From Treponema sp. (GTDB lineage Bacteria; Spirochaetota; Spirochaetia; Treponematales; Breznakiellaceae), in the NCBI GenBank assembly GCA_031266695.1, contig JAISAK010000322.1, positions 1 to 12,146 of the forward strand: DNA of 12,146 bases. The letters run 5' to 3'. Under the pieces are notes generated by a model. The model ran no database searches. It worked only from the letters and a program-made list of their open reading frames with translations, and was not told the DNA's origin. Both the position numbers and the translations under genes were made by a program. Of this stretch, positions 1-12,146 are shown piece after piece. Each line of letters opens with the position of its first letter. Position 1 is the stretch's first letter.

Positions 1-384
1 GGTAGAATGTTCTTTTTTTTTAGAGAATTTGTTTTCATACAAGCCTCCATAGAAATTGAATGGATTAGTATAACATGGTTTACAAAATACATTCAAGGCA
101 ATATTTCATACCCCAGCGATACAAACGAAAGCAGGATATTCCCCCGCGGGGAGAAGTCATGTGTTTCATTCGTGGTGCAAGAGGTAGAATCTATTACCTT
201 GAGTGTTTTTTTGTAGATAAAGAAGTCACCGGGCAGGCAAAGCCAAGGGGGGCGAAATAAAAGCGCCCTATTAAGGGGCGTTGTTGAGAGAAGTTGACTG
301 CGCCCAGCGCACAATAAAGGTCGCAGTACTGAACAAAGGCGCGAGGGTTTTAATCCGAGCGGCGCGCTGCGGGGTATAAGGTCT

Positions 385-451
385 TTTCTTGTATGAACCA
401 CGAACGAACCAGGGATTACAGTACACAAGTTCGTGTTTTTCGTGTGGTTTG
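385..451. repeat. Imperfect inverted repeat (ACCACGAA type)
   Basis: The left arm, around 385-400, reads AACCACGAACGAACC. The right arm, around 430-450, carries TTCGTG, CGTGTGGTTT and GTGGT words that are partly its reverse complement. The match is imperfect. The words are the same as those in the stronger palindrome at 562-657, which suggests a related or decayed copy of one repeat family. Confidence 0.35.
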
Positions 452-561
452 TGGTAAATTTTCTTTACTGTTTTTTAAACTGAGAATTCCTGAACGGGTG
501 CTGCCTTGTAATGACTAAACACAAAGAAATATAAATAACCGCGAAGTCAAATAAGTCGAAG

Positions 562-657
562 TAAAGAGAGAAGAAATAACCACGGAGGACACGGAGTTAA
601 GAAAGGATTTGTTCCAAAAACTCCGTGTATCTCCGTGGTTTAATATTCTTCTCTTTG
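562..657. repeat. Long inverted repeat, MITE-like intergenic palindrome
   Basis: The left arm at 562-598 (AAAGAGAGAAGAAATAACC, then CACGGAGGACACGGAGTT) is nearly the reverse complement of the right arm at 619-657 (AACTCCGTG, TATCTCCGTGG, TTTAATATTCTTCTCTTTG). There are few mismatches and about 20 bases lie between the arms. The transcript of either strand would fold into a long hairpin. No coding capacity is present. Similar CACGGAG-rich palindromes are, to my knowledge, dispersed in intergenic regions of many environmental bacteria. Membership of a mobile, non-autonomous repeat family is inference. Confidence 0.6.
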
Positions 658-679
658 CTACTGCTATTTGCCGAATTCA

Positions 680-697
680 GTGCCCGGCACCTTTTTT
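680..697 (+). terminator. Short GC palindrome followed by a T run
   Basis: The palindrome GTGCCCGGCAC (680-690) is followed directly by C and six T residues. On the plus strand this has the form of a small intrinsic terminator, with a 4-bp stem and a 3-nt loop. No plus-strand gene ends here, so it may instead be part of the neighbouring repeat element or a remnant. Confidence 0.3.
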
Positions 698-730
698 ACC
701 TTCTTCGACTTCGTGGTGAATTTTTTCTTC

Positions 731-745
731 AAAGCATGCTGCTTT
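731..745 (-). terminator. Small hairpin just past the ftsK stop
   Basis: AAAGCA (731-736) and TGCTTT (740-745) form a perfect 6-bp stem with a 3-nt loop, 22 bases past the stop of the minus-strand ftsK gene. On the minus strand it is followed by A-rich rather than T-rich sequence. It is therefore not a canonical intrinsic terminator, though it could stabilise the mRNA 3' end. Confidence 0.25.
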
Positions 746-767
746 TAGGAGAATTTAACGGGGTACT

Positions 768-3032
768 CTATATTCCATGTAAAAGCTCTCTTGGCTTTGA
801 GCCTTGGGCGGGCCCGACGACGCCTTTCGCTTCCATTTCCTCAACAAGCCGGGCCGCGCGGTTGTAGCCGATCTTGAGCCGCCGCGGTATATAGCTGGCG
901 CTGGCCTTGCCCTGCTGAACCACAATCTCCAGCGCTTTGTCGTAGAGGGGATCGCTGCCTTCGGAGAAAAGGGAAGGGGAAAGCTCGTCGTCTTCGTCGT
1001 CGTAGAAAATTTCATCGTCAATGTAGTCGGGTTTGCCCAGGGTTTTGACGTGAGCGACCACGGCTTCCACTTCTTCTTCGGAAACAAAGGCTCCCTGCAT
1101 GCGGATGGGGAAGGGATCGACCACGCCGGCGTAGAGCATATCGCCCTTGCCCAGCAGCTTCTCCGCGCCCACCATGTCGATGATGATCCGGCTGTCCGTC
1201 TTGCTGGCAACCATGAAGGCGATTCGGCTGGGGATATTGGCCTTGATAAGGCCGGTGATCACGTCAATCGAAGGCCGCTGGGTGGCCAGTACCAAATGAA
1301 TGCCCACGGCGCGGCTCATGGCGCATAACCGGGCTACGGTGGATTCAAGCTCCTTGCCGGTGGTTGCCATAAGATCGGCAAACTCGTCGATTACCACTAC
1401 GATGTAGGACATGTGCTCCTGGGCGATATTCTTTTCGGCTATGCGTTTGTTGTAGCTGCGTATGTCCCGCACGCCCATAGAGTCCAGGCATGCGTAACGC
1501 CGCTCCATTTCGTAGATACAGTACTGCAATGCCTGAAAAGCTTTCTTCGGTTCGGTGATGACCGGGGTAAGCAGATGAGGTATGTCATTGTAAAGCTTGA
1601 GTTCCACAATTTTGGGATCGATAAGCATGAGCCGGCACTCCGCCGGATGCCGCTGGTAGAGAATCGAAAGGATCATGGCGTTGACGCAGACCGATTTTCC
1701 CGAGCCGGTTGCTCCCGCGATGAGCAGGTGGGGGGTCTGCACCAAATCCACGGTGACTGCCTCGCCGGTGATATCCTTGCCCAGTACCACCGGGATTTCA
1801 AGCTTTTTCCCTTCCCGCCGCTGTTCCCCCTCGATAATCTCCCGAAAAGAGACAATGTTTCGTTTTGCGTTGGGCACCTCAATGCCTACCGCGTGCTTGC
1901 CCGGAATGGGAGCGACGATGCGGACTGAGGAAGCGGCCAGGCGCAGGGCTATGTTGTCCTGGAGGTTGACGATTCTGGAAAGCTTTACCCCCGGCGCGGG
2001 GAGTATCTCGAACATGGTAATGACCGGCCCCTTTCGGATTCCCGTCACTTCCGCCTGTATCTTGAATTCCTCAAGGGTTCCCTTAAGGGTTACCGCGGCG
2101 TCTCTTGTCGCCTGATCGATGATCCAGTATTCGCCGTCGGGGTACTCGTTGAGAATATCCAGGGGTATCTTCCATGAACGGAGGACCTTTGGCGAAGGAA
2201 AGGCGGATTTTTTCCGGCGTTCCCGTTCCTCGTGTTCCAGGGCCGCGGCTTCCGCTTCCTTCAGGGCCCGTTCAACGTCGTCTTCGAGGGGTTCGGTGTT
2301 CCCGGTTTCAACAAAGGGTTCAACTTCTTCGACAAGCTCCGCTTCTTCTTCATCAGCTTTGTCTGCCGGGACCTCGTCCGTCATGGCCTCGTCCGCCGCA
2401 GCGCTGTCCGTTGCAACGCTGTCCGGCGCGGGTATGAATAAGGTTGTTCCGGCGTTATACTTCACGGCCCCGCTTTCGTTACCCCCGGTTCCTGCCGCGG
2501 CCTCCGGTTCCTTTTCCGGCGGGGGGATAAGTAAAGTTCCCGCCCTGCCCTTATAACCGCCGCTCCGGCGGAACCCCGCTCCCGTTCCGTAAAGGCCCGA
2601 AAAGAAAAGAGCGTTCTTCAGGGAATAGAGCGCAAGGACTTCAAGAACCGTAATAAGAACAATGACAAAGCTGAATCCCGTTTTGCCGGCAAAATCAAGA
2701 AAGGCAAACTGTTTTGAGCGGGTTTCAAAATCGCGGATAAAGGCAAAGCCCAGGGCCAGGGTTAAAAAGGGAAAGACGCCCGCGCTGAGGACAAAGATAC
2801 GATCCGGCCGCCATTTCGGATCTGCCAGAATGAACGCGGCGTAGCCAAGAAAAACCGGAATAAGAAAAGCGAGGACTCCGTAGGATCGGGCAAAAAAATC
2901 ACCGGGCGAAGGAGGAAAAATTCCAAAGCCAAAAAGGGCTTCCGCGACGGAAAAGCCAAGGAACAGGGTGATTATGCCCAACAGTACCGCCAGCGCAATA
3001 CCGGCGGCGCGGAATTTGAGATCCGTATCCAT
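768..3032 (-). CDS. ftsK: DNA translocase FtsK/SpoIIIE
   Basis: This is a septum-located, ATP-driven DNA pump that clears and segregates chromosome termini during division. The protein has 754 residues, close to Bacillus SpoIIIE and much shorter than E. coli FtsK. Four membrane segments lie near residues 9-35, 51-70, 79-99 and 117-137. An acidic low-complexity linker covers about 140-280 and contains a short internal duplication (AGTLLIPPP and AGTTLFIPAP). The alpha/beta motor follows: Walker A GATGSGKS at 440-447, Walker B VVVIDEFADL with D549/E550, then ATQRPSIDVITG. The C-terminal gamma winged helix (about 690-754, with SYIPRRLKIGYNRAA) would read polar chromosomal motifs. The ATG overlaps the TAA of the upstream transglycosylase gene (TAATG), so translation is probably coupled. 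It is the last gene of the three-gene unit. Confidence 0.97.
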   Translation of the reverse strand: MDTDLKFRAAGIALAVLLGIITLFLGFSVAEALFGFGIFPPSPGDFFARSYGVLAFLIPVFLGYAAFILADPKWRPDRIFVLSAGVFPFLTLALGFAFIRDFETRSKQFAFLDFAGKTGFSFVIVLITVLEVLALYSLKNALFFSGLYGTGAGFRRSGGYKGRAGTLLIPPPEKEPEAAAGTGGNESGAVKYNAGTTLFIPAPDSVATDSAAADEAMTDEVPADKADEEEAELVEEVEPFVETGNTEPLEDDVERALKEAEAAALEHEERERRKKSAFPSPKVLRSWKIPLDILNEYPDGEYWIIDQATRDAAVTLKGTLEEFKIQAEVTGIRKGPVITMFEILPAPGVKLSRIVNLQDNIALRLAASSVRIVAPIPGKHAVGIEVPNAKRNIVSFREIIEGEQRREGKKLEIPVVLGKDITGEAVTVDLVQTPHLLIAGATGSGKSVCVNAMILSILYQRHPAECRLMLIDPKIVELKLYNDIPHLLTPVITEPKKAFQALQYCIYEMERRYACLDSMGVRDIRSYNKRIAEKNIAQEHMSYIVVVIDEFADLMATTGKELESTVARLCAMSRAVGIHLVLATQRPSIDVITGLIKANIPSRIAFMVASKTDSRIIIDMVGAEKLLGKGDMLYAGVVDPFPIRMQGAFVSEEEVEAVVAHVKTLGKPDYIDDEIFYDDEDDELSPSLFSEGSDPLYDKALEIVVQQGKASASYIPRRLKIGYNRAARLVEEMEAKGVVGPAQGSKPRELLHGI

Positions 3033-5272
3033 TATCTATATATATCGGCAAAAGACCCGGCTAAACTCAAATCATAATACAGGCAGCCGTAGAGGAGGGC
3101 CGCGGCCAGAACTTTTCTTCCATAATTCCGGGTTTCGGGATATTCAATGGTTTCCAGGAAAAGATCGCCGGGAAGTTCCATTCCCCTGCCGGCGGCCTGC
3201 CTGTCCGCTTCGCGCCAGCGCCTGACCCGGTTCATGCCGCCGTTATAGGCAAGCAGGGCCAGAAGGGGGCTTTCCATGCGGTCGATTAGGTAGCCAAGGT
3301 AGACCGCGCCGATGCGGATGTTTGTCTCCGGGTCAAACAGGTTGAGGTTCCCTTCTTCACCGGCGCTCAGCCCCGCGCCCCTGTCGGGAGAGTTTCTTCG
3401 AATGCGTCCGGCCGTCTCCTCCGCCGTGGCGGGCATAAGCTGGGTCAGGCCCACCGCGCCCGCCCGCGAAACAATGCCGCTTTGGAAGGCGCTTTCCGTG
3501 CGGATAAGGCCGAAAAGCAGTTCCGGGGCAAGTCCGGTTTCCTTCGCGTACTTTTCAACCGTTTCCCGGAAGGGCCGCGGATAGTAAAGTTCCAGATCCC
3601 GCCGTCCGGGTTCGATATCATCCCTTTCCAAATAAGAAGAAATAAGCCGGATTGATTCGGCATACAAACCTGCCCCGGCAAGAGATTCCGCCAGAACCCG
3701 CAGATCTTCCCCGGTCAATTCATCTTCCAGTGCCCTGATATAGGGTTCCGCAAAGCCGGCCGCGCCATACCTGAAAAAGTCCAGAAGAAACCGCAGGGCC
3801 GGTTTTTCCCTACCCGAACCGGAAGCCGCGCTGGCCCTGTCCCCGGCCGGGGCTTTGCCGGCTTCCGGCAGCTCCGGAAAAGGCTCCCCCAGGGCGGCGG
3901 CGCTCAGGGCGTGGTAGTAAAGGGCAGATTTTTCCGCTTCGCGGGCGGCGCGCAGAAAAGCGGCGGCCGGCGAATCGGCCCCGCCTTCCGTCCCGGCCGC
4001 GGCACGGGCCCCGGCGCTTTCCTCCGGTGAGAGAAAACCTTCCTCCAAAGCCCGGCCGATGATGTAGGCGTATTTCGCTGTCGATGCCCCGTCGGAACGA
4101 TTTTTAATCAGCGCGAAAATCCGTACAAGATCGCCCCACTGCCGCCCCGCGGTAAGGAGGCGGGCAAGATTGTCCAGGATATCGGAAAAATAGAGATCGT
4201 TGTTCCATTGGGGAATATAAAGGGCGGCCTGTTGAGCAGCCCTGCCGGGGCTTCGGGTCAGCGTTGAATCGAGGATGTACCAGATGCAGGCGTCTTCCTG
4301 AACCGGGTCGGGGGCAAAGGGCCGGGCCCGGGTAAAAAGCTCTATCCCCCGGTCAAGGCGGCCCCGCTGCCGGGCCATACGCGCCGCGAAAAAAAGAAGA
4401 CGGAACCGGATGTTTGAAACCTCCGCGGCAAAGCGCCCCTCCGCGGAAAACAGGGAAGGAGCTTCCGGAGAAGTTTCCCCGGGAATCTTTCCGGGATTTT
4501 CCGCAAGTTCTTTTTCCCAGCCCAGAAACAGATCGAGACCTTCTTCACCCGAGTCTGTGTACTGGAAGCACCTTCCCAGATCGTTCAATAAATTTGGGTA
4601 TTGAAAAAACAGCGCGGGGCCGGCGGCCAGACAGACCCGGAAAGATTCCAGGGCTTCCGCGTAACGGGAACGGGACGCGGCGATGTATCCGTCCAGGGCC
4701 GCCGATTCGGCGGGGCTGAAAAGGCCGGGGCCGCGTTCCCGGCATTCGCGCAGGACATAGAGAGCCGCTTCGCCGGGGAAAGGATCCCCGCCCGCGCTTC
4801 CTGTTATCCGGACGCCGTTTTCTGTCCGGGCGCCGGCCGGCGGCCCCAGCAGAAAAGCCAGGGCCCTTTCCCGCGTCTCTTCCGGCGGGGCGGCAAGAAC
4901 ATCGAAGGCGGCAGCCCAGGACGGAGGCGCTTCCCGTTTCAGGCGGGCGTATACCCTTGGGGAGACCGCCTCTCCCCGGTACAGAAGCTTGAGAAGCTCT
5001 TCGGCCGCGGCCTTTCTGACATAGGGATTGGAACTGCCCAGGGCCTTTTCAAAATAAGCCCCGGCCCCGGTTGGCCGGGCGGCAGTTTCGGCGGAGTCCG
5101 CTGTAGCGGATGCCGATTCCGCCGCGCTAAGCAGGCCCCGGTAAAAATCAGGCTGCGGGCCGGCCGCGCAGAAAACAAAACCGAAAAACAGGAAAAGGAC
5201 AACAAGAAAAGAATTCAATCCCAAAAATGACGCAGAGCCCGGAGCGTCTTCGCGGGGATTCCGGCCTTCCAA
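3032..5272 (-). CDS. Slt-type soluble lytic murein transglycosylase
   Basis: This enzyme cleaves peptidoglycan glycan strands, leaving 1,6-anhydro ends, in the periplasm. Residues 19-39 form a hydrophobic export signal, probably a signal peptide; FVFCAAG is a poor lipobox. Residues ~45-560 are Ala/Leu/Glu-rich helical repeats resembling the superhelical scaffold of Slt70. The C-terminal SLT domain (about 575-730) has the catalytic glutamate E593 in LIRTESAF, then GLTQLMPAT (608-616) and AYNGG (675-679). At 746 residues it is longer than E. coli Slt70. The assigned start is TTG, immediately after the TGA of the LysM gene; no strong Shine-Dalgarno is visible. An in-frame TTG at 5218 (residue 19) would give a shorter signal peptide lacking positive charge. 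The stop overlaps the ftsK start. Confidence 0.93.
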   Translation of the reverse strand: MEGRNPREDAPGSASFLGLNSFLVVLFLFFGFVFCAAGPQPDFYRGLLSAAESASATADSAETAARPTGAGAYFEKALGSSNPYVRKAAAEELLKLLYRGEAVSPRVYARLKREAPPSWAAAFDVLAAPPEETRERALAFLLGPPAGARTENGVRITGSAGGDPFPGEAALYVLRECRERGPGLFSPAESAALDGYIAASRSRYAEALESFRVCLAAGPALFFQYPNLLNDLGRCFQYTDSGEEGLDLFLGWEKELAENPGKIPGETSPEAPSLFSAEGRFAAEVSNIRFRLLFFAARMARQRGRLDRGIELFTRARPFAPDPVQEDACIWYILDSTLTRSPGRAAQQAALYIPQWNNDLYFSDILDNLARLLTAGRQWGDLVRIFALIKNRSDGASTAKYAYIIGRALEEGFLSPEESAGARAAAGTEGGADSPAAAFLRAAREAEKSALYYHALSAAALGEPFPELPEAGKAPAGDRASAASGSGREKPALRFLLDFFRYGAAGFAEPYIRALEDELTGEDLRVLAESLAGAGLYAESIRLISSYLERDDIEPGRRDLELYYPRPFRETVEKYAKETGLAPELLFGLIRTESAFQSGIVSRAGAVGLTQLMPATAEETAGRIRRNSPDRGAGLSAGEEGNLNLFDPETNIRIGAVYLGYLIDRMESPLLALLAYNGGMNRVRRWREADRQAAGRGMELPGDLFLETIEYPETRNYGRKVLAAALLYGCLYYDLSLAGSFADIYR

Positions 5273-6217
5273 TCAGTTTTTCGGCGGAACCCGGATGGTT
5301 GTTCCCGAGATAATAAGATCCGGATTACGGATATTGTTGAACCGGGCAATCCGGTGGTAGAGCCAGGGATCGCGGTAAAAGGCCTCGGAAATATCCCAAA
5401 GGGTATCGCCCCAGCGAATCTTGTAGGGGGCGCCCTCCTGGGGAATAGTTGCGGGAACCTTATACGAAGAAACCGGAGCAGGCGGACGGACCCGTCCTCC
5501 GCTCTGTCGCTGAACGGGAGGAGGCGCGGAAGGGGCCTGTATCACCGGCGGAGGAGCGGGGGGCTGAACCGCCGGAACCTCTTGCCGGGCCGGAGGCGGC
5601 TGCGGGGCCTGGCTTGCCGGCGGCGCCGGGGGAATAACTCTTTCGACGACGGGTTTGCTTGTTATTCTCCGCAAAGTACTTCTGCCGCCAAGAAAAAAGA
5701 ACCAGAGGGCGGCGACGATCAGGATAAGAGCTATGCCGATAATAATGAGTACAATCCAGGGGAATTTTTTCGTTTCTTCACTGTCTGACGCGGCGCTGTC
5801 TTCATAGAGGGCGCTGGGAGGCTCCTCATTTTGCTCCAGTTCAAAATCGGGAATCTCATATTCCCGGTTATCTTCGTCCAGGGATTTAAGGGAGACATTG
5901 AGCATCTGATGTTCTCCGCCGGTGCTGGTATCCAGATCAATAGCATCCGCCGTAATATCTCCGTTTTTCGTGGAAGAAATCACCAATTCAATAGAAGGCT
6001 CCCCTTTCGGTTTGGGTTTAATGTTTTCAACAACCAGGCTGCCAATATACTGGGCATCGGCCATAGTCCGGGTGAAACTTCTATAAAGATCGATCTGTAC
6101 ACTACGCTGTTTATCATGGACGGTAGTAAGAATAAGCCGCTTTTTAACGGCGGAATTTTCTTCCATGATAGAATAGAATTCCCCGTTAGCAATTTTGATC
6201 CCAATAGTTGATGCCAT
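5273..6217 (-). CDS. Hsp70 substrate-binding-like domain, membrane segment and LysM protein
   Basis: This 314-residue protein has an unusual layout. Residues 3-110 align by eye with the DnaK substrate-binding beta domain: IGIKI near the start, SVQIDLYRS, YIGSLVVENIKPKPKGEPSI (compare DnaK LGQF...INPAPRGMPQIEV) and NGDITADAIDLDTSTG. There is no ATPase domain and no helical lid. An acidic linker covers 112-149, a single membrane helix 153-176, a Pro-rich stretch 190-250, and a C-terminal LysM domain 264-314 (YKIRWGDTLWDIS to ISGTTIRVPP) should bind peptidoglycan. Topology is uncertain: a cytoplasmic N-terminus is expected, yet the residues just after the helix (R179, R183, R184, K188) are basic. 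The ATG has a good AAGGAG 7 nt upstream. It is first in the operon with the transglycosylase and ftsK genes. Its function is unknown; it may be an envelope or division scaffold. Confidence 0.85.
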   Translation of the reverse strand: MASTIGIKIANGEFYSIMEENSAVKKRLILTTVHDKQRSVQIDLYRSFTRTMADAQYIGSLVVENIKPKPKGEPSIELVISSTKNGDITADAIDLDTSTGGEHQMLNVSLKSLDEDNREYEIPDFELEQNEEPPSALYEDSAASDSEETKKFPWIVLIIIGIALILIVAALWFFFLGGRSTLRRITSKPVVERVIPPAPPASQAPQPPPARQEVPAVQPPAPPPVIQAPSAPPPVQRQSGGRVRPPAPVSSYKVPATIPQEGAPYKIRWGDTLWDISEAFYRDPWLYHRIARFNNIRNPDLIISGTTIRVPPKN

Positions 6218-6236
6218 TGGTCAACTCCTTATTTTG

Positions 6237-6265
6237 ACTCTAGAGGGCGAATTTCCCTTTGTCAA
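6237..6265 (-). promoter_or_regulatory. Sigma70-type promoter of the LysM-slt-ftsK unit
   Basis: On the minus strand a perfect -35 TTGACA (6265-6260) is followed by a 17-bp spacer and TAGAGT (6242-6237) as the -10, which matches 4 of 6 consensus bases. Transcription would begin near 6230, at the AAGGAG ribosome binding site, giving a leader of only about a dozen bases. The spacer contains the partial palindrome GGGAAATTCGCCC. Confidence 0.6.
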
Positions 6266-6287
6266 TATATATCGGCAAATATTATGT
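6259..6287 (+). promoter_or_regulatory. Candidate promoter of the TPR gene
   Basis: On the plus strand TTGTCA (6259-6264) precedes TATTAT (6280-6285, 15-bp spacing) or TTATGT (6282-6287, 17-bp spacing). Transcription would begin about 30 bases upstream of the ATG at 6323. Its -35 hexamer shares bases with the minus-strand -35, so the two promoters are back to back. It is weaker by consensus than the opposing promoter. Confidence 0.4.
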
Positions 6288-6322
6288 TTTGAAATAGGAT
6301 CATTTTACCGATAATTGAAATT

Positions 6323-7699
6323 ATGTTACTTCCAGTCGTGGCCGGAATAGCTTTTCTCGCTGTTGTTGCCGTCGCCTTTGTGATGCTAATGGGCCGTTCC
6401 CGGGGCAGTATCACCGGACGCGGCAAACGCGCCAAAGGCCGGGACGCTGTTCTAAAGGACGCCAACAAAAAGCTTGCCCAAAATCCACGGGATCCGGAAG
6501 CTCTTTACGCTATAGCGGATATTTGTTTTCAGGAAGAAACCTGGGACAAGGCCATGAAGAATTATGAAATATTGATGGAAATTTGCGCCACTTCTTCAAA
6601 CACGGGTATTAATGAATTTGAGGTGGATCTCCGCTTTGCGCTTTCGGCGCTGAAGCTCAACCTGCCCGATCAGGCTTACCGGGGATTCAGCGCCGCCCGC
6701 ATTATCAGGCAGGATAATTTTGAGGTAAATTACAACCTTGGCTACCTGGAATTCCAGAAAAAAAACTACGAGAAGGCGATTCATCTGCTTCAGCAGGCCA
6801 GGCAGCAAGACCCGGAGAGTTCCGCGGCGCTTCGTTATCTGGGACATGCCTTCTTCCGGATAAAAAAGCCCAGGGAGGCAATGAATTTTATCCGCAAGGC
6901 CATTGATCTTGCCCCGGACGACAAGGAATCCCTTTATACCCTGGCGGAGTGTTACTACGAGGCAAATCAGACGGAGCAGGCCCAGCGCATTTTCACTCAT
7001 CTCAGGGCTGATCCGGTAATGGGTCCCAGCGCCTGTCTTCTTTCGGGGACGATCAATTCCGATGCCCGCCAGTACGAAGCGGCAATTCAGGATTTTGAAA
7101 TCGGTCTCAGGCATCAGGACATCAAACCCGATGTGCTTGTGGAACTGCGTTACCGGCTGGCGTCCGCCTACCTCAAAAAAAACGCAATCGACAAGGCTCT
7201 TCCTCTGCTTAAGCAAATACAACTGGAAAATTCCAATTATAAGGATGTCAATGTTCTTGTCGGCAAATATCAGGAACTCAATGCCAACAAGAACCTTCAG
7301 ATTTTCCTTATGGCCCCTTCCGCGGACTTTGTTGCCCTTTGCCGCAAGATAGTGATGAACTATTTCCGGAAGGCAAAGGTAAAAATTACCAACATATCGG
7401 TAAACAAGAGTGAATGGGCGGATATTTTGGCCGAGGTCGATACTCCCAAATGGGCGGATCTGATCATGTTCCGGTTTATCAGAACCCAGGGCTCCATCGG
7501 CGAACTTATTGTGCGGGATTTTCACTCCCACCTTAAAGAGGTAAAGGCCGGAAAAGGCATCTGCGTTACCGTCGGCACCTATACAGAAGAAGCAAAGCGC
7601 TACACCGAGGCAAGGCTGATTGATTTGATTGAGCGAGACAGGCTTTCGGCCATGTTGAACGCGGTTGACGCGCGCCCCCAGGCTGCGGCGAAAAAGTAG
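6323..7699 (+). CDS. Membrane-anchored TPR protein with C-terminal Mrr-like domain
   Basis: The protein has 458 residues. A single membrane helix (3-23) is followed by a strongly basic stretch (25-40), so by the positive-inside rule the body faces the cytoplasm. About seven tetratricopeptide repeats span ~58-304, clearest at 133-165 (YNLGYLEFQKKNYEKAIHLL), 166-199 and 271-304. These usually mediate protein-protein contacts. Residues ~333-447 resemble the Mrr/restriction-endonuclease-like fold: RKIVMNYF, a strand pair around EWADILAEV and WADLIMFRF, then ELIVRDF, GKGICVTVGTYTEEA and LIDLIERDRL. The expected QxK catalytic pair is not evident, so it is probably a non-cleaving relative. The ATG has no strong Shine-Dalgarno. 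It is divergent from the LysM operon and followed 47 bases later by a small gene, probably co-transcribed. Confidence 0.88.
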   Translation: MLLPVVAGIAFLAVVAVAFVMLMGRSRGSITGRGKRAKGRDAVLKDANKKLAQNPRDPEALYAIADICFQEETWDKAMKNYEILMEICATSSNTGINEFEVDLRFALSALKLNLPDQAYRGFSAARIIRQDNFEVNYNLGYLEFQKKNYEKAIHLLQQARQQDPESSAALRYLGHAFFRIKKPREAMNFIRKAIDLAPDDKESLYTLAECYYEANQTEQAQRIFTHLRADPVMGPSACLLSGTINSDARQYEAAIQDFEIGLRHQDIKPDVLVELRYRLASAYLKKNAIDKALPLLKQIQLENSNYKDVNVLVGKYQELNANKNLQIFLMAPSADFVALCRKIVMNYFRKAKVKITNISVNKSEWADILAEVDTPKWADLIMFRFIRTQGSIGELIVRDFHSHLKEVKAGKGICVTVGTYTEEAKRYTEARLIDLIERDRLSAMLNAVDARPQAAAKK

Positions 7700-7746
7700 C
7701 TCCCGCCCTTTCTTGCGGTTCCGCGTGTTTCGTAGTATAAGGTTTT

Positions 7747-8136
7747 ATGCGTCCCATCGATCGTTTTTTTTCCCGCCTCAGCCGCCTCGAAGCCGGCCCT
7801 GTTCCCGACAAGAAACAGCTTGCCCGGGTTTCCGGGGATTTCGCCGCCCTTGTAGCCCCCCTGACCGGCGCGCGGACAGCCGGAGAACTTTTTGACCGCG
7901 CCCTGGGACGCATAGAACGATTCGGCGGCCCGGGGAAACCCGGCGGAGGATCTTCCCTTCAGAAGTTAGGCGCCATTGCGGCCTTTTTTACCGGCGAGTT
8001 TGATGATGAGACCATGAGCCTGGAAGATGAAGATTGGGAAGATCTGCGCGAAACGCTCAAGGAAATTTCAGGCGAAATGGATATAGAGACCCTTACCGCT
8101 TTAATGGGAGAGCTTTTAAGCCGGGGGAAAATTTAA
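7747..8136 (+). CDS. Small acidic protein of unknown function
   Basis: I do not recognise this 129-residue protein. It has no membrane segment or signal peptide. The N-terminal part (1-60) is basic and amphipathic. A Gly-rich hinge follows (60-70, GGPGKPGGGSS). The C-terminal part is predicted helical and highly acidic around 84-113 (EFDDETMSLEDEDWEDL). The ATG is preceded by AAGG four bases upstream. It lies 47 bases after the TPR gene on the same strand, with codon composition like its neighbours, so it is probably a real gene in the same transcript and perhaps a cytoplasmic partner of the TPR protein. Confidence 0.7.
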   Translation: MRPIDRFFSRLSRLEAGPVPDKKQLARVSGDFAALVAPLTGARTAGELFDRALGRIERFGGPGKPGGGSSLQKLGAIAAFFTGEFDDETMSLEDEDWEDLRETLKEISGEMDIETLTALMGELLSRGKI

Positions 8137-8156
8137 GAGAAACGACGGCAACAGGA

Positions 8157-8207
8157 GATAAGCAGAAAGGAACAGGCCGCTTTCCGCCTTTTTGCTTGCT
8201 GCTTATC
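8157..8207. terminator. Inverted repeat between convergent genes, likely bidirectional terminator
   Basis: GATAAGCAG (8157-8165) and CTGCTTATC (8199-8207) are perfect 9-bp complementary arms in the short gap between the plus-strand gene ending at 8136 and the minus-strand RRM gene ending at 8224. Inside lies a smaller AGGC/GCCT hairpin followed by a T run (plus strand), with AAAGG on the other side. Position and symmetry fit termination of both convergent transcripts. Confidence 0.5.
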
Positions 8208-8223
8208 CCCCGCCTTCTGATTA

Positions 8224-8523
8224 CTACCAGTTATTTCCGCCGCCGTAACCGCTGCCGGCGCCGCGATCACGCCGGGGTTTGTCCATTGCTTCATTTACCC
8301 GAATCTGGCGGCCTTCAAATTCGCGGCCGTTGGTGCCCGCAATTGCCGCATTTGCTTCATCTTCGGTACTCATTTCGATAAAGCCGAACCCCTTGGAGTT
8401 GCCGGTCTCACGATCGAAGATGATCTTGGCGGAAGCGACGCTACCGAAGTCGGCGAAAAGATTCCGCAGACTATCTTCGGTGGTGTTGTAAGAGAGATTA
8501 CCGACATACAGTTTCTTGGCCAT
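8224..8523 (-). CDS. RRM-type, Gly-tailed RNA-binding protein
   Basis: A 99-residue protein made of one RNA recognition motif and a short tail. RNP2 is LYVGNL (5-10) and RNP1 is KGFGFIEM (44-51), both with the aromatic residues that stack on RNA bases. The tail (82-99, ending GSGYGGGNNW) is basic then Gly-rich. This matches the small bacterial Rbp family, whose cyanobacterial members include cold-induced proteins and act as cytoplasmic RNA binders. The ATG at 8523 has GAAGGAA 8 bases upstream. The gene stands alone behind a long region containing hairpins, so regulation at the mRNA leader is plausible. Confidence 0.93.
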   Translation of the reverse strand: MAKKLYVGNLSYNTTEDSLRNLFADFGSVASAKIIFDRETGNSKGFGFIEMSTEDEANAAIAGTNGREFEGRQIRVNEAMDKPRRDRGAGSGYGGGNNW

Positions 8524-8530
8524 TGAGAAA

Positions 8531-8569
8531 ATTCCTTCACCCGGAAGATCCTTCCTTTCCGAAGGAAGG
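8531..8569 (-). promoter_or_regulatory. Hairpin with anti-Shine-Dalgarno arm upstream of the RRM gene
   Basis: In mRNA sense, CCTTCCTT (8569-8562) pairs perfectly with AAGGAAGG (8557-8550) around a 4-nt loop. The TTCCTTC within and just after the first arm is also the exact complement of the ribosome-binding stretch GAAGGAA (8537-8531). A third pairing, TCTTC with GAAGG across CGGGT, would also cover part of that site. These structures exclude each other, the usual layout of a thermosensor or other leader switch. Such a function is inferred, not shown. Confidence 0.4.
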
Positions 8570-8638
8570 TTCCGCGCCGGGCACGCTTTGGACTAAAGAG
8601 CCCTTTTATTCACGCCCACAAAAGCGAGCGACTCAAAT

Positions 8639-8665
8639 TTTCCCCGCCTCTGACAGCCGGGGAAA
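8639..8665 (-). other. Perfect 8-bp hairpin in the RRM leader region
   Basis: TTTCCCCG (8639-8646) and CGGGGAAA (8658-8665) are exact reverse complements around an 11-base loop, about 115 to 140 bases upstream of the RRM start codon. There is no T run directly after a clear gene end, so it looks like a leader structure more than a terminator. Confidence 0.4.
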
Positions 8666-8938
8666 CATAAGATGCTTACTGTTAAGGGAAATGAAAGACA
8701 GGCAAAAACGCAAAAACAGAACCCCTAAACCTCTAATAAATGGCGCGTCTCTTGCAACGGCGCCTCTTCGCACTATACTCAAAAAAATATCCTATTTACT
8801 ACAGTACCCCACTTTACCCGTAACGTCAAGCGTTTTCCAACAAATTCCACTTAAAATGTTATATTTTTACAGCCCCGGGACGGGAAATTGCGGAACTGCA
8901 AGACGAATCCGCTCTTTTCCCCGCAGACCGAAACTTTT

Positions 8939-9916
8939 CTAATACCCCTTGTTCTTGTCTACCAGATTCCTCAAGGGTTCGCCGCGGTTATACCGATCCA
9001 GATTCTCCAGGGCTATTCCCATTGCCATGCGGCTGTAATCGGGGTGGCAGCCCGCATAGTGGCCGGTAATAATCACATTGTCCAGATCCCAAAGCGGGGA
9101 GTCCTTGTCCAGCGGCTCCTTTTCAACAACGTCAAGCATGGCGCCGGCAATACTTTTTGACTTTAGGGCTTCGATCATGGCAGCCTCGTCCGTAGTGGCG
9201 CCGCGGCCAAGATTGATGTAGAGGGCGCTGCTTTTCATCCTGCCGAACTCGGCGGCGCCGAAACAGTGTCTCGTATCGGGCGTTGAAGGGAGCAGGTTGA
9301 CTACATAATCCGCGCCGGGAAGCAGCTCCAAAAGCCGCGCCGCGTTCTCAATCCGCACCCCTTCCGTTCCGCCGCCCCTTGCGGGGTTCCGCCGGAGGCC
9401 CGTCACCTTAATTCCGAGACCAAGCGCTGCCCCGGCAATTGTCCCGCCAATAACGCCATAACCCAGGATCAGCATGGTCTTCCCCGCGCAGACGGAGAGC
9501 TTTTGGTCATCGGCAAAAAACCAGACGTGCTGTTTCTGCGCGGCAAGGGCATCGGGAAGGCGCCGGTTCCAGCCGAGCAGCATGGCAAAGAGATGTTCGG
9601 CCAATTGCCGGCCGTGTATCCCCGTGGCGGTGGTAAGCTGAAAGGGAAGCTGTTTTGCCTCGGGGAATTTCTGCAAAAAATCCGCGCCCGCCGACCAGAG
9701 TTGCAGCCATTTTAACTTCGGCATGCGGGGAAGAAGGCCGTAGGGAACATCGCCCAGGCCTATTTCTATACGATCAAGATACGGCTCTATCCCGGCCGCA
9801 TCCCTGGAGATAAGCACTTCCCTGCCTTTCCCGGCCGCTTCCAGTTGTTCCCCGAATTCGGGAAGCAGCCTGAAGGGCTGCATGGATAAAAGAATCACGC
9901 TTTTTTGGGTTTCCAT
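8939..9916 (-). CDS. D-isomer-specific 2-hydroxyacid dehydrogenase
   Basis: This is an NAD(P)-dependent oxidoreductase interconverting a 2-keto acid and a D-2-hydroxy acid; the substrate cannot be read from sequence. It has 325 residues, normal for the family. The Rossmann glycine motif is GYGVIG (152-157). The catalytic set is R238 in INLGRGA, E267 in VVEKEPL and H286 in ITGHYAG, with spacing close to that of phosphoglycerate dehydrogenase. The N-terminal substrate domain is short, and the WLQLWSAGADF segment (70-80) is typical of GhrA/GhrB-like glyoxylate or hydroxypyruvate reductases. The ATG has AAGGTGGT upstream. It starts 39 bases after the deacetylase stop, so the two are probably co-transcribed. 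Confidence 0.93.
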   Translation of the reverse strand: METQKSVILLSMQPFRLLPEFGEQLEAAGKGREVLISRDAAGIEPYLDRIEIGLGDVPYGLLPRMPKLKWLQLWSAGADFLQKFPEAKQLPFQLTTATGIHGRQLAEHLFAMLLGWNRRLPDALAAQKQHVWFFADDQKLSVCAGKTMLILGYGVIGGTIAGAALGLGIKVTGLRRNPARGGGTEGVRIENAARLLELLPGADYVVNLLPSTPDTRHCFGAAEFGRMKSSALYINLGRGATTDEAAMIEALKSKSIAGAMLDVVEKEPLDKDSPLWDLDNVIITGHYAGCHPDYSRMAMGIALENLDRYNRGEPLRNLVDKNKGY

Positions 9917-9955
9917 AGGACCACCTTAAACCGAAACCCTCCCCTGTATCAATCC

Positions 9956-11149
9956 TCAAAAATCCCCGAACACGTAAAACCGCAGCCCCAATTCCTGCGC
10001 GGTCCGCAGTGTATACTCAAGCCGTTTTGGTTTAATTCCCCACCTGGCTTCATTCGAAATATCATGGCTGGTGAAGGGCACAATCTTTTCGCCGCCGATA
10101 AATTTTGCCGCAAGGAGCATCAGCCCAATTTCGCGTTCAAATTCTTCGTCATCCTCGTAAATGATGTTGTCCAGGGCCTTGGAGACAATATAGCCCTCCT
10201 CGCCGATAAATTCCGCGTCGTACAGCCGGAAGTTTACCCCATAGCCGCGGGTTATTTTAAATACGGGTCTGAGGGCATCCCTCATCCACTGGGAGGAAAA
10301 GCCGAAGGGAAACGCGAAGGAAGAAAAGTTTATGCCCGCCCCGCGGAATTTTTCGGCGGCCTCCGTGGTCTCGCTGTCAAAGACCTCGCGGGATGCCCCG
10401 GTCAAATCCTGATGATTGGCGCTGTGATATCCGATATCGTGTCCCCGGCGGAAAGCTTCGGCGCAAAAAGCGGCAAGCCCCTCTCCGTCCGCGGCCGCCT
10501 CTCCGCCCCCTGCGCCGTCCGCAGCGCCGTTCCCGGCGGCGGCAGGATCTTCGCCTGAGTCAAGCTCGCCCTGAATAAAAAAGGTAACCCTGGCGCCGAA
10601 CCTGTCAAGGAGATCGAAATACTGCCGCCAGGACTGCCGGTAATCGTCGTCAAAAGAGAGGAGCAGGCCCGCCCCGCGGGCCCCGGCGCGGGAAAAGGCG
10701 CTGCCCTCCGTGTGTCCCTCCGCGGAACCGCTTTCCTCCGGGGCGGGGGAGAGCAGGGGGTTCCAGAACAATTCGTCATCCCTTGCCGCCCCGCTTGCGG
10801 AATCTTCGGCGGTAAAAGAAATCCTGAAAAAACCTTCCCTGTTTCTGCCGGCTTCCGCGGCGGCGGCAAGGCGATACACAACAAAAACATCGGCATCCCT
10901 TTCCTTATATTCGCCTTTAACAACAATGCCGCTTTCTTCGTCAAAGTAAAAAAATTTTTCAACCCGGGGAGAATTCACCTTGATAAAATAAAGAGCCCGC
11001 TCAAAGGGATCGCGTATTTCCTCCGGCGCCGTCCGCCCCGGGTACGCTGTTTCCGGCGTGCGGAAAAAAGACCGGCTCGCGCAGGACAGGAAAAGAATAG
11101 GCAGGACAAACAGCCCTTTGTAAATATATTTCATTGACATATATTTCAT
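9956..11149 (-). CDS. Lipoprotein polysaccharide deacetylase (NodB family)
   Basis: This is a metal-dependent carbohydrate esterase expected to remove N- or O-acetyl groups from a surface or cell-wall glycan. It has 397 residues. The signal sequence ends in a lipobox (LFLSCAS, C23), so it is probably lipid-anchored and periplasmic. The NodB motifs are in order: SFDDDY (165-170), HSANH (242-246, metal histidines), FPFGFS (280-285) and TSHD (360-363). The ~120 residues before the catalytic domain are not recognised, and an Ala/Gly/Glu low-complexity insert lies at 196-224. The assigned ATG has GGAG only 4 bases upstream. Codons 4 and 6 are also ATG, and the start region contains a short duplication (ATGAAATATAT twice), so the true start may be a few residues later. 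It is divergent from proA, with 30 bases between. Confidence 0.88.
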   Translation of the reverse strand: MKYMSMKYIYKGLFVLPILFLSCASRSFFRTPETAYPGRTAPEEIRDPFERALYFIKVNSPRVEKFFYFDEESGIVVKGEYKERDADVFVVYRLAAAAEAGRNREGFFRISFTAEDSASGAARDDELFWNPLLSPAPEESGSAEGHTEGSAFSRAGARGAGLLLSFDDDYRQSWRQYFDLLDRFGARVTFFIQGELDSGEDPAAAGNGAADGAGGGEAAADGEGLAAFCAEAFRRGHDIGYHSANHQDLTGASREVFDSETTEAAEKFRGAGINFSSFAFPFGFSSQWMRDALRPVFKITRGYGVNFRLYDAEFIGEEGYIVSKALDNIIYEDDEEFEREIGLMLLAAKFIGGEKIVPFTSHDISNEARWGIKPKRLEYTLRTAQELGLRFYVFGDF

Positions 11150-11163
11150 TTAACTCCGCCCTG

Positions 11164-11172
11164 TGCTATGAT
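11164..11172 (+). promoter_or_regulatory. Extended -10 promoter element of proA
   Basis: TGCTATGAT fits the extended -10 consensus TGnTATAAT with one mismatch. No -35 hexamer lies at 17 bp; a TTGACA at 11134-11139 is 27 bp away. Transcription would begin around 11179-11180, at the proposed proA start codon, which implies a leaderless or nearly leaderless mRNA. Confidence 0.45.
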
Positions 11173-11179
11173 ACCATAC

Positions 11180-12146
11180 ATGAGTTCCCTGGATACACTG
11201 TTTATTTCCCTCAAAAAGGCCCAGGCGCGGCTTGCCCTGGAAAACCGCGCGGCCAAGGACAGGGCGCTTCACGCGGCGGCCGGAGCGGTCGACAAAGATC
11301 GCGCCGCCATACTTGCCGCCAATGCCCGCGATGTCGAAAGAGCCCGGGCCGGCGGAATGCGGGAAAGCCTTGTGGACCGGCTGTTTCTGGACGGGGGCCG
11401 GATTGACGGCATTATCGAAGGAATGGAAACCGTTATTCGCCAGGAAGACCCCATCGGCCGTGTACGGGCCGGCTGGACTCTGCCCAAGGGACTCGAAATC
11501 GAAGAAGTCACCGTTCCCCTGGGCACAGCGGCAATCATCTATGAATCGCGCCCCAACGTAACCGCCGACTGCGCGGCCCTTGCCTACAAGGCGGGCTGCT
11601 CCGTTTTGCTCCGGGGCTCTTCGTCCGCGCTGGACTCAAACAGGGCCCTGGTAAAGGCAATCAAAACCGGTCTTGAAGAGGGGGGCGGAATACCCGGCGC
11701 CGTCGCTCTGGCGGATTCGGGAAGCCGTGACGAGGTCGACGAAATTCTCAAGGCCCGGGGTTTTATCGACGTGGTTCTTCCCCGGGGCGGCAGGGAGCTG
11801 ATACGGCGGGTGGTGGAAAACGCCCGCATTCCGGTAATTGAAACCGGCGAAGGCAACTGCCACATCTATGTCGAGCCCGGCGTCGATATGAATCAGGCCG
11901 TCGGGATTATCGCCAACGCGAAGCTCCAGAAACCCGGCGCCTGTAACGCCGTGGAAACCCTGCTGGTACACCGGGACGCCGCCGCCGCGCTGCTGCCGCT
12001 CCTTGCCGCACGGTTCGCGGGAAAAGCGGAACTCCGCTGCGACGCCGCTTCGAGGGCGCTTATTGAGGGGGGAAGCCTCCCCCCGGGCCACAACCCGGCC
12101 GGTTTAGGCACACCCCCCAACCCGGGGGCCGCCCCGCCCCCCGCTC
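11180..12146 (+). CDS. proA: Gamma-glutamyl phosphate reductase, partial
   Basis: This enzyme reduces gamma-glutamyl phosphate to glutamate 5-semialdehyde with NADPH, the second step of proline synthesis. The frame is open to the right edge (322 codons of an expected ~415-420), so the C-terminus is missing. Family landmarks are VPLGTAAIIYESRPNVT, VLLRGSSSALDSNRALV, VVLPRGGRELI, PVIETGEGNCHIYV and the active-site cysteine C255 in KPGACNAVETLLV. The ATG at 11180 is chosen because the family N-terminus (LDTLFISLKKAQ) follows. An in-frame ATG at 11168 would add four residues but overlaps the -10 element. No Shine-Dalgarno is visible. The last ~60 bases encode a Pro/Gly string unlike ProA, probably from a frameshift or poor sequence at the end. 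Confidence 0.95.
   Translation, partial: MSSLDTLFISLKKAQARLALENRAAKDRALHAAAGAVDKDRAAILAANARDVERARAGGMRESLVDRLFLDGGRIDGIIEGMETVIRQEDPIGRVRAGWTLPKGLEIEEVTVPLGTAAIIYESRPNVTADCAALAYKAGCSVLLRGSSSALDSNRALVKAIKTGLEEGGGIPGAVALADSGSRDEVDEILKARGFIDVVLPRGGRELIRRVVENARIPVIETGEGNCHIYVEPGVDMNQAVGIIANAKLQKPGACNAVETLLVHRDAAAALLPLLAARFAGKAELRCDAASRALIEGGSLPPGHNPAGLGTPPNPGAAPPPA

Follow-up and report, generated by a model that had tools for sequence, protein, structure and literature searches.

An orphan Hsp70 substrate-binding domain joined to a membrane helix and a LysM domain in a widespread spirochaete protein family

The window analysed here is a 12,146-nucleotide stretch of Treponema sp. (assembly GCA_031266695.1, contig JAISAK010000322.1, positions 1 to 12,146 of the forward strand). 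Its minus-strand gene at 5273..6217 encodes a 314-long bitopic membrane protein, named SBD-LysM, in which an Hsp70 substrate-binding beta domain (SBDb) stands without its ATPase, followed by a membrane helix and a LysM domain. The existence of this orphan substrate-binding domain (SBD), first put forward in a sequence-only reading of the window, is confirmed, and the family of SBD proteins with a membrane helix is widespread in spirochaetes. Anatomy, gene neighbours and loss pattern lead us to favour, at an even chance, an ATP-independent transmembrane adaptor that would place a cytoplasmic or flagellar component beside a wall patch opened by the lytic transglycosylase Slt, encoded by the next gene; we infer its peptide binding, partner, orientation and the positioning relative to Slt.

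The gene is preceded by a ribosome-binding site read from the sequence (AAGGAG, 6225..6230, minus strand like all elements of the gene), with the ATG 7 nucleotides downstream. Residues 1-119 (5861..6217) form the Hsp70 SBDb-like domain of eight strands and a short helix. The Pfam Hsp70 match starts at profile position 393 of 599, leaving out the actin-like nucleotide-binding (ATPase) domain, and structure comparison of the predicted model reveals the two-sheet SBDb sandwich at about 25% amino acid sequence identity to Hsp70 SBDs. Next comes an acidic linker that is predicted to be poorly ordered and is expected in the cytoplasm (residues 120-153, 5759..5860), then a single membrane helix (residues 154-176, 5690..5758), a Pro/Ala-rich linker expected to be periplasmic (residues 177-262, 5432..5689) and the LysM domain (residues 263-311, 5285..5431). 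The latter scores 33.5 bits against a Pfam cut-off of 20.9 and has the LysM fold in the predicted structure too. Both the missing ATPase and the fusion to a membrane helix and LysM, as read from the letters of the window, are thus borne out.

ATPase, interdomain linker and lid of DnaK are all missing. The first residue aligns with DnaK T395, so that DnaK linker residues 389-394 have no counterpart; the hydrophobic interdomain linker (VLLLDV) is likewise absent from the family, DnaK 389-394 being gapped in 57-98% of 144 members. DnaK T417-I418 are deleted in SBD-LysM. The helical lid (SBDa) is absent from the predicted structure, which has only a helix at residues 110-119 and then the low-confidence linker. 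At the place of the lid lies a conserved YEIPDFE motif (residues 120-126, 5840..5860; lower confidence, block pLDDT 61), with conservation among the 144 members of 0.85 for P, 0.88 for D and 0.81 for F. The predicted model gives no regular structure at this motif that would depict it as a docked cis ligand.

The peptide groove is among the best kept parts of the domain. Weighted entropy at the positions that we take to be the DnaK peptide contacts averages 1.27 bits, compared with 2.24 at the remaining ones (103 positions; permutation p 7e-5), and the difference holds among hydrophobic positions (1.08 in the groove, 1.87 outside it). I401, S427 (T), Q433, V436 and I438 are kept or conservatively substituted in most members; outside Borreliaceae, conservation reaches 0.96 at Q433, 0.89 at I401 and 0.87 for A at the M404 position. 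As in lidless DnaK, a groove with neither ATPase nor lid would be expected to take up peptides fast and independently of nucleotide. In 102 of 111 members more lysines and arginines stand before the membrane helix than behind it (6 are balanced, 3 reversed), a charge bias that points to an orientation with the N-terminus, and hence the groove, probably inside the cell.

Relatives are numerous. Of 8000 candidates scored in a protein search, 1807 matched; 119 of the best 120 carry both Pfam domains and one carries LysM only. Where the sources give names, "Hsp70 family protein" and "LysM" protein are among them. In a named genome collection, relatives are encoded in 500 of 525 pattern-matching stretches, the best 80 of the 500 coming from Treponema sp., Spirochaetaceae, Spirochaetia, Breznakiella, Gracilinema and one source labelled Brevinematales. 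Among 58 genomes, the own one included, 47 match at E 1e-20 or better and the other 11 at DnaK or LysM-domain level only. In a search of 296 genomes of the phylum, the own order has a member in 58 of its 59 genomes (the source genome included), and members are also present in families f6, f8, f9, f10, f12, f15 and f17 of the rest of the class, and in f18, f31 and f44 outside it. The raw tally of this search, 288 of 296 genomes, consists mostly of DnaK itself and does not measure family presence. Its model misses the divergent members of f14 and of the Borreliaceae, the 30 genomes of f7; a second model, A8, was built from divergent members including two of the Borreliaceae tested and G291 of f14, and finds five of five Borreliaceae tested (two being inputs) as well as G291 (also an input). 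A Borrelia "hypothetical protein" adjoining the transglycosylase gene, without Pfam match, has the same predicted SBDb fold. LysM is absent in Borreliaceae and other lineages.

The family has a fixed architecture and is conserved in its own right. In an arbitrarily rooted tree of 53 SBD sequences it sits on a long branch apart from DnaK, a separation that is weakly supported (0.548). The Hsp70-like 578-long frame of L172 (genome G329) has an SBD with GGDFFPLM that branches apart from DnaK, and other Hsp70-like frames of 580-650 residues score slightly better against the family profile than usual DnaK frames do; the orphan domain may have come from a protein of the L172 type. In f6, the LysM-bearing copies (L137, L138) adjoin a gene of about 1600 residues, with repeated Ig-like domains in L137, the only one scanned, and the LysM-less copies (L154, L156) accompany the transglycosylase. 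Treponema pallidum TP0048 was considered as an ortholog and rejected, being CcmA (PMC5015957).

The usual partner of the SBD gene is slt (3032..5272, minus strand), which follows it directly on that strand and whose product belongs to the flagellar lytic transglycosylase family of BB0259 (NF047373, 418.6 bits, cut-off 234; the BB0259_flg_lyt model also matches in 8 of 14 control genomes, never above the cut-off). The same arrangement recurs in 69 of the 73 named loci that remained once 7 of 80, for lack of an SBD open reading frame called above 25 bits, had been dropped, and in 19 of 21 when the window and L031-L050 are read in all six frames (L041 ends at the contig edge and L046 has none). 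In the set L131-L159 the SBD and slt pair occurs in 13 of 29 loci, many of the others having been selected for a LysM-bearing copy or for slt. In its most complete form, TPR / SBD / slt / uppP / ftsK, the cluster occurs in Borreliaceae (L149, L150), in a locus outside the class (L132) and in others, and Pfam confirmed BacA/UppP in 4/4 and FtsK in 4/4 of the genes tested. Common to Borreliaceae and to a locus outside the class, the cluster is old; in the window, FtsK is encoded at 768..3032 on the minus strand. Borrelia cells deprived of BB0259 have hooks trapped beneath the peptidoglycan and form no filaments (PMC8517470).

The pattern of loss suggests a tie between the gene and flagella. Within the class, neither the window protein or family model nor A8 detected an SBD member in any of 17 genomes without FliG, though FtsK is kept in all 17. 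They form two lineages. Twelve belong to f13, which have neither FliG nor slt and a single SBD match each, at DnaK level; no flagellin match was found in the three searched and no FlhA match in the two searched. The other five, of f4, have no FliG, flagellin or FlhA match and are matched by the window protein only at DnaK level. Four of these five keep slt above the cut-off, one only when same-frame pieces are summed, and in all four a methyltransferase gene abuts slt, the SBD gene being missing between two kept neighbours: flagellate f4 members (L039, L042) have the order methyltransferase, SBD-LysM, slt, and the methyltransferases are 49-55% identical in the three compared. A member is present in 71 of 106 FliG-bearing class genomes against 0 of 12 (Fisher p 6e-6; Borreliaceae not counted as having it, counts entered by hand, G298 taken from another search), a p value that overstates independence because the FliG-less genomes form two lineages. 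The gene was thus seen only where flagella are present, as judged on the 17 FliG-less class genomes, and not in all flagellated spirochaetes. In flagellated G022 of f1, a LysM-like stretch with two stop codons lies upstream of slt (L157, near 3173-3295), apparently a decaying SBD-LysM remnant. The data fit a protein that is useful to periplasmic flagella without being essential for them, acting at the wall together with Slt.

The adaptor would work as follows. Freed of ATPase and lid, the cytoplasmic SBDb would hold a stretch of extended peptide from a partner protein, its groove being open at all times; alternatively, the otherwise empty groove may hold the protein's own conserved YEIPDFE tail. 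Membrane helix and Pro-rich stretch would span to the periplasm, where LysM, in the lineages that have it, would rest on peptidoglycan. A cytoplasmic or flagellar component could in this way be set beside the wall patch that the neighbouring Slt opens for the periplasmic flagellum. More tentatively, spirochaetes could have made the Hsp70 SBD into a nucleotide-free transmembrane hook between the wall and a peptide of cytoplasmic or flagellar origin, at the site where the periplasmic flagellum pierces the peptidoglycan; it would then be an old flagellum-linked component, present in relatives of Treponema and hidden in Borrelia. To our knowledge, the orphan SBD protein is missing from every spirochaetal motor model.

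Several observations weigh against the adaptor. The window protein itself has 2 K/R before the helix and 4 after it, and 17 of 20 Borreliaceae proteins show a charge bias opposite to the family majority. Borreliaceae have also lost the groove residues TTV..Q, and the entropy comparison depends on an assumed list of groove contacts. Of the 13 loci in L131-L159 where the SBD gene is paired with slt, 10 have no LysM. Three f10 genomes (L142-L144; G310, G197, G284) have SBD-LysM directly beside ftsK with only trace matches to slt; these small genomes, whose flagellar sets are unusual, with FlhA, a weak divergent FliG and no flagellin match, were judged flagellate by FlhA despite the latter. In G307 and L046 a member is present but does not adjoin slt, and together with f10 they rule out a strict one-to-one link of SBD and slt. 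Conversely, six f1 genomes with flagellin have no member found (G005, G009, G011, G022, G026, G030); four of the six are only 64-81% complete, and G005, G009, G011 and G030, G022 and G026 excepted, also have no slt above the cut-off. Flagellated G321 of f16 yielded no member with either model. In f11, G232 and G311 have flagellin, no slt match and marginal A8 matches (7.5e-4 and 5.3e-4) in 196-residue frames about 3 kb from an FtsK match on the same strand (G232:C14:33121-33282, G311:C2:46007-46156), which may be divergent members.

The Borreliaceae make it possible, if clearly less probable, that SBDb is kept as a passive scaffold, a stable beta-sandwich for dimerisation or surface docking with an empty and irrelevant groove: they retain the fold once the groove motif is gone, and a fold alone does not show function. 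Outside this family, however, Q433, I401 and the A at M404 rank among the most conserved positions. A divisome or general wall-remodelling factor acting with FtsK and UppP at the septum, its flagellar link being secondary, is rather unlikely. The presence of ftsK and uppP in the old cluster, the three f10 genomes, the position of the f11 matches and the frequent action of LysM proteins at septa speak for it. The division site, where the sequence-only reading had put a client or partner receptor, is nevertheless weakened by slt being the commonest neighbour and by the FliG-less class genomes, in which no SBD gene was found although FtsK is kept; FtsK is accordingly weakened as main partner as well. 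A link to ftsK stays arguable from the old cluster and from the slt-less genomes in which the two genes adjoin.

The sandwich fold and its conserved groove, in a genome with a further Hsp70 that has its ATPase domain (a 567-long frame matching profile positions 1-499 of 599), would also suit a membrane-tethered holdase or a DnaK co-chaperone taking unfolded clients, in line with the sequence-only reading. We regard this as improbable, as linker and lid are missing, loop L2,3, which in DnaK contacts the ATPase domain, is two residues shorter, and the genomic context is one of wall and flagella rather than chaperones. That other Hsp70 gene, the separate long branch and a conserved family of fixed architecture lead us to reject a fragment or decayed copy of DnaK, to which the low identity to Hsp70 SBDs could otherwise have pointed; its likelihood is negligible.

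On the other side of the SBD gene, and divergent to it from Borreliaceae through to the locus outside the class, lies the TPR gene (6323..7699, plus strand), a recurrent cluster member. Its product starts with a hydrophobic helix (by eye), followed by TPR repeats and a C-terminal Mrr_cat-like domain, restriction-endonuclease-like (37 bits, cut-off 21), and the Borreliaceae and window proteins share 26% identity over nearly the whole length (E 3e-43). At E 1e-20 the gene is found in 0 of the 17 class genomes without FliG and in 15 of 20 flagellates tested; four of the best matches contain one stop codon each. The TPR protein is uncharacterised and flagellum-linked in its own right. Farther away, ordinary neighbours on the minus strand code for an RRM RNA-binding protein (8224-8523), a D-2-hydroxyacid dehydrogenase (8939-9916) and a polysaccharide deacetylase (9956-11149).

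The sequence-only reading knew of no system with this arrangement, and no description of the SBD-membrane-LysM architecture was found in open-licence PubMed Central literature, where the gene names BB0261, BB0258 and FtsK gave no match either. The family, in which a known domain takes on a new role, is apparently undescribed. Among the closest published subjects is BB0259 (LTase-Bb), product of the usual partner gene and wall-acting in flagellar assembly, an enzyme and not the SBD protein; neither bb0260 nor bb0261 occurs in the main text of that study (PMC8517470). The gene beside bb0259 is a candidate for how spirochaetes site the opening of the wall at their internal flagella.

In layout, SBD-LysM resembles the RodZ-type bitopic adaptors between cytoskeleton and wall, which have a cytoplasmic domain, one membrane helix, a linker and a periplasmic end; the cytoplasmic domain is helix-turn-helix in RodZ and SBDb here. 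With Hsp70/DnaK (PF00012, C-terminal part) it shares the eight-strand fold and largely the groove positions; it differs in having no nucleotide-binding domain, linker or lid and in its fusion to a membrane helix and LysM. Hsp70 SBDs are understood as governed by their ATPase, and HscA, unlike SBD-LysM, retains both ATPase and lid. The HscA SBD with the IscU peptide (PDB 1u00), which serves a single dedicated peptide, comes closest as a model of a specialised groove. If the adaptor reading is true, a conserved family using the SBD alone, tied to flagellum and wall, would show what the Hsp70 grip does without its engine.
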